A DNA stretch of 64,000 nt, from positions 1 through 64,000 of the forward strand of contig JAEPNO010000012.1 of NCBI GenBank assembly GCA_017643365.1, read 5' to 3'. A model generated the notes under the pieces. The model made no database searches, was not told the DNA's origin, and worked only from the letters and a program-made list of their open reading frames with translations. Origin of the DNA: Balneolaceae bacterium (GTDB lineage: Bacteria; Bacteroidota; Rhodothermia; Balneolales; Balneolaceae). The first letter of the stretch is position 1. Each line of letters begins with the position of its first letter. A program made the translations under genes and the position numbers. Below, piece after piece: positions 56,024-59,074 of this stretch.

Positions 56024-57064
56024 TCAACTAATAGCGACTCTCTTGGTACAAAACTGTCTCAGCGCTTGATTGATTTGCTCAAACTCGATCAAAAAAGCAT
56101 CGTGTCCGTATTTCGACTTAATCTCTCGAAAGGTAGCGTTGGGGAGAAGTTCGGCAAGCTCGATCTGTTCGTGGATCGGATAAAGGATATCAGAATCGAT
56201 GCCGATTACTAACACCGGTAGATCTAATTTGCCGAGTACCGATTTAGCAGTTCCACGTCCCCGGGCAACATCATGCGAGTCCATAGCTTTGGTTAAAGTG
56301 ATATAAGAATTCGCGTCAAAGCGTTGAGTGAGTTTTTCGCCCTGATAATTCAAATACGACTCAACCTCGAACTGTTCTTTTTGGATGTTCCAATTTCTGC
56401 CGAATTTACGATCGTAATCGTGCGGACTTCGATAGGTGATCATGGCCAAGCTTCGAGCGGCGGCTAATCCATCGTTAGGTGGTTTTTCATCAGAATAAAA
56501 GCCGTTGTTCCAGTTTTTGTCTGCTTTAATGGCAATACGCTGTGCTTCGCTGATTCCAATGGCCCAAGGTGAATGTGAAGCTCCCATCGCGATGAGGCAA
56601 GCCGATTTAATTCGGTCATCCATCACACAGAATTCCAGTGCAATCATTCCGCCCATAGAGCCACCGATGATTAATTCAATTTCCTGGATTCCGAGTTCAT
56701 CCAACAAAAGTTGTTCTAAACAAACAATATCGCGGATGGTTAGATTTGGAAAATCAGCTTGATACTTTTTTCCGGTAGTCGGGTTAATCGATATGGGACC
56801 AACCGATCCGTAACAACTTCCGGGGTGATTAATGCAGATCACAAAATGCCTATCCAAATCAATAATGCCTGAATTATCGAATAACCCGCGAAACCAATCA
56901 TCGGCATTGGAGTTTCCGGTGAGCGCATGGCAGATCAGAATGGCGTTATTCCTTTCACTGTTTAACGTGCCCCAGGTTTGATAAGCAAAATGCGGTTGAG
57001 GTATTTCATCACCGGATTCGGTGAGAAAGACAGTGTCAATTGTATGGGTTTTTAAATCAGACAT
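56024..57064 (-). CDS. metX: Homoserine O-acetyltransferase
   Basis: A 346-residue alpha/beta hydrolase-fold enzyme that acetylates homoserine with acetyl-CoA, first committed step of methionine synthesis by direct sulfhydrylation. Nucleophile elbow GGSMGG (S136), catalytic D291 in IDSDILYP and H321 in YGHDAF. NSNADDWF and HPGSCYGSVGP are substrate-site segments of MetX. It lies 74 nt after metY and both follow the SAM riboswitch, so it is probably under the same control. MetX and serine acetyltransferases overlap in sequence; the GGSMGGM and SCYGS motifs fit MetX. Confidence 0.93.
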   Translation of the reverse strand: MSDLKTHTIDTVFLTESGDEIPQPHFAYQTWGTLNSERNNAILICHALTGNSNADDWFRGLFDNSGIIDLDRHFVICINHPGSCYGSVGPISINPTTGKKYQADFPNLTIRDIVCLEQLLLDELGIQEIELIIGGSMGGMIALEFCVMDDRIKSACLIAMGASHSPWAIGISEAQRIAIKADKNWNNGFYSDEKPPNDGLAAARSLAMITYRSPHDYDRKFGRNWNIQKEQFEVESYLNYQGEKLTQRFDANSYITLTKAMDSHDVARGRGTAKSVLGKLDLPVLVIGIDSDILYPIHEQIELAELLPNATFREIKSKYGHDAFLIEFEQINQALRQFCTKRVAIS

Positions 57065-57138: not shown

Positions 57139-58473
<1,335 letters not shown>

Positions 58474-58507: not shown

Positions 58508-58546
58508 AAAAAAAGCCTTGCTCGTTGAGTTCGAACAAGGCTTTTT
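58508..58546 (-). terminator. Terminator of the SAM-I riboswitch
   Basis: Stem GCCTTG (58515-58520) with CAAGGC (58536-58541), extended by A/T pairs, then seven T on the minus strand. The loop holds the palindrome GAGTTCGAAC (58527-58536), whose TTCGAACTC can pair with GAGTTCGAA at 58556-58564 beside P1, so an antiterminator competes with it. Confidence 0.92.
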
Positions 58547-58562
58547 GCCAACATCTTTCGAA

Positions 58563-58689
58563 CTCATCTTTTCCCGATACCCATAACATGTATCAGGCAG
58601 GATGTAGCACCTTTTCGTGAACGGCTTACGATATTCGCGACGGTTGCCAAGGCTTCGTAGGACCTGATCCCTCCACCTTTCTTAATGAG
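58563..58689 (-). ncRNA. SAM-I riboswitch upstream of metY
   Basis: On the minus strand P1 is CTCAT (58685-58689) with ATGAG (58563-58567). Between them are the SAM-I hallmarks in order: TTAAGAAAGGTGGAGGGA, then GCCTTGGCAACC, then AAAGGTGCTACATCCTGCC. These match the conserved core, k-turn and J-regions of the S-box. SAM binding stabilises P1, frees the terminator and stops metY-metX transcription. Confidence 0.96.
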
Positions 58690-58731
58690 AATGCAATAGT
58701 TTAAAAGAACGATTGAAAATTGAAATCCAAC

Positions 58732-58769
58732 AAAAAAGCCCTTCTGATATTGCATTCAAAAGGGCTTTT
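58732..58769 (-). terminator. Second terminator upstream of the riboswitch
   Basis: Stem AAAAGCCCTT (58734-58743) with AAGGGCTTTT (58760-58769), 16-nt loop, followed by a T run on the minus strand. It lies 24 nt after the Met/Cys leader ORF. AAGGGTTTT (58786-58794, starting inside the ORF stop codon) can pair with its first arm, giving an antiterminator. Confidence 0.85.
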
Positions 58770-58792
58770 ATGAAACTAGTTATACAAAACCC

Positions 58793-58867
58793 TTAAGTGC
58801 GCATCGTCATGCACATGCATTTACAGCAATTGGGCTTACACATAGTATGTTGGTTTGAAAATTTCAT
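58793..58867 (-). CDS. 24-aa Met/Cys-rich leader peptide of the met unit
   Basis: A short frame from ATG at 58867 to TAA at 58793. The translation is MKFSNQHTM, then CKPNCCKCM, then CMTMRT. It has five Met (1, 9, 18, 20, 22) and five Cys (10, 14, 15, 17, 19), 10 of 24 residues. The codon for residue 9 onward lies over a stem GTGCAT/ATGCGC. The frame ends at a stop whose bases are also the start of AAGGGTTTT, which can pair with the following terminator. This is the plan of a leader-peptide attenuator sensing Met or Cys supply. Supporting points are position, codon content and pairing; no ribosome site is strong and no homologues were searched. Confidence 0.6.
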   Translation of the reverse strand: MKFSNQHTMCKPNCCKCMCMTMRT

Positions 58868-59074
58868 TGTTTACAGCTTACGCGTTGTTGCTTTTAAAAA
58901 CAACTTGACGTGCAAAATTTATCGGAAGCCCCCTAATTAAACTTAAACTGATCGGCTAAGTGGTTAAAATTCAAAAAGAATAATATTCTTTGAGGCTCTA
59001 AAAAATTACCTATTCGTTGAAATTTATTCTATAAATAAATCATCAATAGAATAAAATTCTGTGCGCGAATGAGG
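58868..59074. other. AT-rich intergenic region carrying leader promoter
   Basis: Holds no gene. It includes the palindromes AAAGAATAATATTCTTT (near 58976) and TATTCTAT/ATAGAATA (near 59027-59052), which lie after the stop of the YdeI-like gene, and GTTGTTTTT/AACAAC near 58890. A promoter for the leader must be here but no clear -33/-7 pair is visible. Confidence 0.4.

Follow-up and report, generated by a model that had tools for sequence, protein, structure and literature searches.

In the window, as we call the whole 64,000-nt stretch of DNA analysed here, the entire metYX leader element lies on the minus strand. Read 5' to 3' on that strand, a promoter-like pair is followed by a 24-codon open reading frame (ORF), a first terminator, a boxA-like GTTCTTT, a SAM-I aptamer with its own antiterminator and terminator, and finally metY and metX (Table 1). 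The ORF, MKFSNQHTMCKPNCCKCMCMTMRT, holds 5 Met codons, the start counted, and 5 Cys codons. An earlier note on this DNA had described this 24-codon frame ending at TAA 58793, with coordinates and counts that proved correct, and had left the strand unstated. The 3' end of the ORF reads TTAAGGGTTTT and is complementary to the 5' arm of the first terminator, while AAGGGTTTT (58794-58786) overlaps the stop codon. This first terminator (58769-58734) forms a 14-bp stem of -18.7 kcal/mol, with a z score of -6.0 relative to shuffled sequences. Further downstream, the independent SAM-I riboswitch that had been proposed together with a terminator of its own was recognized, the aptamer matching RF00162 at 66.3 bits against a gathering cut-off of 44.4. 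Its 10-bp antiterminator takes part of the P1 3' strand (AUGAG) and competes with the stem of the second terminator.

Table 1. Features of the metYX leader element and the genes that follow it, with positions in the window.
Feature	Position	Strand	Basis
Promoter-like pair: TTGTTT (58903-58898), 17 nt, TAAGCT (58880-58875), 7 nt to ATG	58875..58903	-	Sequence; offsets across 79 leaders
Leader ORF MKFSNQHTMCKPNCCKCMCMTMRT with stop codon (TAA 58795-58793), 24 codons, probably leaderless	58793..58867	-	Sequence; homologues in relatives
Proposed stall zone, codons 9-22, holding Met/Cys codons	58802..58843	-	Sequence; Met/Cys profile of 67 leaders
Segment 1 (putative protector) AAGCCC within the ORF, partner GGGUUU 58792-58787	58832..58837	-	Minimum-energy fold, z -4.0; 1:2 pairing test
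Segment 2 (antiterminator 5' arm) AAGGGUUUU, overlapping the stop codon	58786..58794	-	Sequence; 2:3 pairing
Segment 3, terminator 5' arm and antiterminator 3' arm	58756..58769	-	Fold; 2:3 pairing
Segment 4, 3' arm of the terminator (58747-58734), sharing bases with the U tract (58737-58732)	58732..58747	-	Fold
boxA-like GTTCTTT, 12 nt 5' of the aptamer	58704..58710	-	Motif count over the order's metY loci
SAM-I (S box) riboswitch aptamer	58561..58691	-	Rfam RF00162
SAM-I expression platform: antiterminator UGAGUUCGAA 58566-58557 with UUCGAACUCA 58535-58526, or terminator 58546-58510	58510..58566	-	Sequence; fold
metY, O-acetylhomoserine sulfhydrylase	57139..58467	-	TIGR01326, 680 bits vs 495 cut-off
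metX, homoserine O-acetyltransferase	56024..57064	-	NF001209 above cut-off

SAM-I riboswitches were collected from 92 genomes of the family, all but one weak match being retrieved, and sorted by the gene downstream. Upstream of the aptamer, a Met/Cys-dense ORF ending about 70-160 nt 5' of it was present at 74 of the 81 metY-linked loci and at none of the 22 metH-linked ones. Both types occur in the window's own genome (L001, metH; L002, metY), and its metH-linked switch has no leader ORF upstream. The seven ORF-less metY loci comprise five from a single genus (g11), in which the upstream coding sequence extends close to the switch, and two singles (L050 and L076). The ORF extends to the order's remaining four families (f2, f3, f4 and f56), although not to every member, and the leader peptides there are strongly divergent (e.g. 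MMALCCMSCCCR, MSKQQNTSIAKRSCMMLCS and MKQIATLISCCMCCMRESHTA). Families of the class that were sampled outside this order lacked the leader ORF. The series arrangement, which the earlier note had considered within this group, is a trait of the whole order and has been lost in a few of its members. The order whose metY leaders carry these tandem brakes is one of salt-loving bacteria, and cultured carriers of the element are Gracilimonas mengyeensis, Fodinibius roseus and Rhodohalobacter sulfatireducens.

A covariance model of the leader, which consists mostly of sequence with only 3 pairs and was built from an alignment including the window copy, recovered that copy with an E value of 7e-15 and matched almost every member of the family with a metY-linked switch. 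A search of the window's genome with this model found no second copy. Weak matches before unrelated genes (e.g. L203, L206 and L208) were inspected and set aside as chance or coding sequence. Variations on the arrangement were seen among the relatives. In one genus of f2 (g14; L153, L155, L157 and L159), the ORF reaches nearly to the boxA-like element and aptamer, and an intrinsic terminator is not evident; the start of the ORF looks able to pair around or after its stop, and this subgroup may use another mechanism. In many relatives (L046, L079, L128, L118, L120, L044, L094, L077 and L093) a gene for a protein of about 160 residues, presumably similar to CoA-binding proteins, sits between the SAM-I switch and metY. 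No such gene is present between the two in the window.

The four segments of the leader can form three mutually exclusive helices, 1:2, 2:3 and 3:4. Because the position of the antiterminator relative to the stop shifts, an RNAalifold consensus of a plain MAFFT alignment recovered just 3 pairs. We therefore determined the best duplex between two segments of the same leader and compared the mean with that of 20,000 random re-pairings optimised identically. Cognate pairing exceeded re-pairing for 2:3 (z -8.8), 3:4 (z -13.7) and 1:2 (z -5.7), with 0/20,000 permutations reaching it in each case. Since leaders within a genus are related, the more sober figures are those for one leader per genus, namely 0/20,000 for 2:3 and 59/20,000 for 1:2. 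In 18 leaders from outside the family, 2:3 again gave 0/20,000. The 1:2 helix also lost strength in synonymous recodings of the ORF (z -8.1), and the peptide sequence alone therefore does not account for it. Compensatory pairs are present in 2:3 (C-G 31 / U-A 25, U-A 23 / C-G 19 and G-C 41 / U-A 11), in a register that was chosen to pair, which makes the permutation test the fair control.

The minimum-energy fold of the full window leader combines 1:2 with 3:4 (z -4.0) and additionally pairs the ORF start (58867-58860) with AGUUUCAU (58777-58770), while window RNA that ends within segment 3 folds into 2:3. We further folded the 67 distinct family leaders, each as an RNA ending with segment 3, with a 30-nt ribosome mask placed at each codon in turn. 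The median number of expected 2:3 pairs was 6.2 in ribosome-free RNA; it was 9.8 when the A site lay 9-10 codons ahead of the stop, and it fell to 5.3 at codon -3 and 0.2 at the stop. Met and Cys codons concentrate where this model wants the stall, their fraction ranging from 0.45 to 0.82 per position at codons -12 to -3. The earlier note had let the sequence over the stop codon pair with the first terminator arm, had left the antiterminator free when a ribosome stalls and the terminator free to form once the stop is reached, and had pointed to relatives as the place to look. The relatives bear this out, with ORF and 2:3 complementarity kept through divergence and pairs changing in compensation, and footprint folding yields the same ribosome logic in silico. 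Overall, features of a trp-type attenuator seen here in silico include an ORF rich in pathway codons, a terminator and antiterminator with compensation, a protector helix across the family and the stall/stop geometry.

The position of the putative promoter bears on how the ORF is translated. A TANNNT ends exactly 7 nt 5' of the start in 47 of 79 leaders (next offset, 12), and a TTGNNN ends 29-31 nt 5' of it in 61 of the 79. Such spacing leaves almost no 5' untranslated region, and the leader ORF is on these grounds probably leaderless.

We consider it very probable that the element is a trp-type attenuator that senses the charging of Met- and Cys-tRNA and acts in series with the SAM-I switch. 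Sequence comparison shows the ORF, its codon bias, the three mutually exclusive helices, the order of the two devices and the SAM-I switch. Where transcription starts, that ribosomes stall, which way the element responds and how the two brakes combine are what we infer from structure, as follows. The transcript would begin at or beside the leader ATG, and a ribosome would load at the 5' end of the RNA. When Met-tRNA or Cys-tRNA is short, this ribosome would wait on Met/Cys codons and open the helix between the ORF and segment 2; free segment 2 would then capture segment 3, no terminator would form and RNA polymerase would continue. With sufficient charging, a ribosome at the stop would cover segment 2, 3:4 would form and transcription would stop after about 135 nt. 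A polymerase past the first terminator would meet the SAM-I switch, which would terminate when SAM is plentiful. Full expression of metYX would thus need uncharged tRNA, for Met and/or Cys, plus low SAM. Met codons are awkward as sensors because initiation needs charged initiator Met-tRNA too, and this counts against the explanation. If the protector helix is real, severe Met starvation would stop initiation on the ORF and thereby shut metYX down. The main signal may be Cys, with Met in second place.

What happens when nothing translates the leader is the sole point on which a two-state version, a sub-case of this attenuator and the minimal form put forward in the earlier note, gives a different outcome. 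It dispenses with the protector, and RNA polymerase reads through unless a ribosome sits at the stop codon. The window's own sequence fits such a device, as ribosome-free RNA ending with segment 3 forms 2:3 (8.9 expected pairs) in preference to the protector helix. Against it, 1:2 exceeds both permuted and synonymous controls over the 67 leaders, and in some of them (e.g. L121 and L084) almost no 2:3 forms without a ribosome. On balance we think the version without a protector unlikely. Two further observations count against the attenuator itself: the 2:3 helix is weaker in genus g6, and the g14 subgroup of f2 has the ORF with no evident intrinsic terminator.

The composition of the leader peptides bears on what the attenuator senses. 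Met and Cys make up 33% of residues in the 67 family leaders (median 7 per peptide), whereas base composition would predict 4.6%, and the two alternative frames give 11.6% and 1.6%. All 67 contain Cys (2-7 each) and all 67 contain Met beyond the start (1-5); in one relative outside the family (L134) Cys is present and the start is the only Met. The order and spacing of the two residues vary freely among genera (e.g. MCCMCMCM, CMMCMCC and ALCCMSCC). Beyond its Met/Cys codons and first few residues the peptide shows hardly any conservation, and substitutions within genera fall nearly evenly on the three codon positions (404/443/504). With such even substitutions and drifting residues, the leader looks like a codon counter and not like a protein.

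The same RNA switch could also be set by the nascent Met/Cys-rich peptide itself, stalling the ribosome upon, for example, oxidation, metal binding or a drug, and not by uncharged tRNA. In favor of this, metal- and redox-active residues make up an extreme share of the peptide, and the case for tRNA charging is built here on sequence and folding. However, the free order and spacing of Met and Cys among genera is unlike that of arrest peptides, and the residues concerned are those of the pathway encoded downstream, like Trp at trpE, all of which leaves peptide-induced stalling with rather little probability. Small Cys/Met-rich proteins exist, and the ORF might likewise encode a functional metal- or sulfur-binding one, the terminator merely ending its transcript. 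This is highly improbable, as residues other than Met and Cys barely persist, codon positions change almost equally and the features that are conserved are RNA pairings across the stop codon. A chance Met/Cys ORF beside an unrelated terminator, which has nothing but the small size of the ORF in its favor, is already refuted by conservation over the order and by all pairing tests and can be dismissed.

Between the proposed tRNA-sensing attenuator and the aptamer lies the invariant GTTCTTT element, found 3-16 nt 5' of the aptamer at 101 of 107 metY loci of the order, with or without a leader ORF, and at none of the 22 metH SAM-I loci of the family (background, 23 of 10,135 windows). It also occurs in families f6 and f7; in f7, which has no leader ORF, it stands directly behind a promoter-like pair. 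Of six genomes whose rRNA leaders were examined, three (G187, G108 and G069) have GTTCTTT there, and the other three, including the window's genome, have only variants of it; in the window's genome the rRNA leader was located by a 27F pattern search, as a 16S family search gave no match. From its sequence, a NusB/S10 boxA (core GYTCTTT) is the natural guess for this candidate element. Pairing with the aptamer was considered as well, but the possible match is short and seemingly unspecific, and the boxA reading is therefore preferred. A more ambitious picture is that of a three-layer device kept across the order, in which the leaderless ORF senses Met-/Cys-tRNA charging, boxA recruits an antitermination complex that tunes obedience to the next terminator, and the SAM-I switch checks last, so that tRNA charging and SAM would together feed a near-AND gate. 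We regard this full picture as doubtful.

Each half of the metYX leader is of a known kind, a trp-type attenuator and a SAM-I riboswitch. In common with trp-type attenuators it has a short ORF rich in codons for pathway products, the segment pairs 1:2, 2:3 and 3:4 and an intrinsic terminator; it departs from them in combining Met and Cys in one leader, in being probably leaderless and in being followed by a riboswitch with a terminator of its own. In mycobacteria, cysA2 encodes a thiosulfate sulfurtransferase. Leaderless poly-Cys uORFs precede mycobacterial sulfur genes, cysA2 among them (PMC4633059; Canestrari 2020 as cited in PMC13236596). A conserved terminator hairpin was not found in these poly-Cys leaders (PMC1262725), and PMC13236596 terms the case translation attenuation. 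The likeness lies in a Cys-rich ORF before sulfur genes, and relatives of the window too have a Met/Cys leader before a sulfurtransferase gene. In contrast, the metYX leader has a strong conserved intrinsic terminator with an antiterminator, Met codons and a SAM-I switch, and because of that terminator we do not class it with the mycobacterial attenuators. The uORFC-8-2 motif of Rhodobacterales cysS similarly places Cys codons in a uORF ahead of an intrinsic terminator (PMC8632094), but it has two Cys codons, no Met and no riboswitch, and belongs to other genes and another phylum.

Tandem arrangements are known as well. In Bacillus clausii, metE is preceded by SAM and B12 riboswitches in tandem (Sudarsan 2006, as described in PMC3641672); there, as here, a Met gene follows two serial terminators that act independently and have one sensor each, and both sensors are riboswitches, whereas one sensor of the metYX leader would be a translating ribosome. 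Salmonella mgtCBR also has tandem attenuators, responding to Pro codons and ATP, in a leader that, unlike that of metE, lacks two intrinsic terminators (PMC3641672). There, too, a short codon-rich ORF provides one of the leader's two attenuation signals, and it differs from the metYX leader in what it senses and in not having two intrinsic terminators. A literature search covering few subscription journals turned up neither a codon-sensing leader placed in series with a SAM riboswitch, an arrangement of which the earlier note likewise knew no description for metYX in this group, nor an attenuator that uses Met codons. The combination, and the joining of Met and Cys in one leader, look new. Two unlike RNA sensors, a ribosome and a metabolite riboswitch, would stand in series on one operon throughout an order, letting the cell gauge supply (charged tRNA) and downstream product (SAM) independently. 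Met would join the codons used for attenuation, raising a sharp question since initiation too needs charged Met-tRNA, and leader-peptide attenuation would be extended to Balneolales.

Other leaders of this kind were found as well. The search with the leader model also led to Trp leaders (e.g. MKKSAHKNINWWWPVKQHTQAVAFL) before trpE, with WWW and a terminator (L209, L211 and L218). A WWW leader, MQIIVLNETTWWWPVDNSTAGLLH, with a terminator likewise precedes trpE in the window's genome (L321, contig C47 at about 45 kb), so leader-peptide attenuation is apparently in use in the window's organism. In 11 relative genomes, Met/Cys leaders with terminators lie before a sulfurtransferase gene with no SAM-I switch (L217, L219, L220, L221, L224-L227, L229, L233, L238 and L239); for example, GGTAGTGG in the ORF matches CCACTACC in the terminator. 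The encoded protein is of the 3-mercaptopyruvate/thiosulfate type, its best NCBIfam match, 3-mercaptopyruvate sulfurtransferase, being below cut-off, and this sulfurtransferase is missing from the window's genome. The stand-alone Met/Cys leaders of relatives and the WWW leader of the window's genome both speak for the attenuator reading at metYX. Outside the order, Met/Cys-rich ORFs stand before metY at L305, L309 and L303 and, as weaker cases, at L308, L318 and L320, mostly with no SAM-I switch in between. The candidate ORFs of Gemmatimonadetes, Pontibacter and Wenzhouxiangella are too few to judge. In Melioribacter, metY is immediately preceded by a Met/Cys leader with a terminator, and the stretch contains no match to SAM-I; an unclassified member of Bacteroidetes (L303) carries both the Met/Cys leader and SAM-I, in series.
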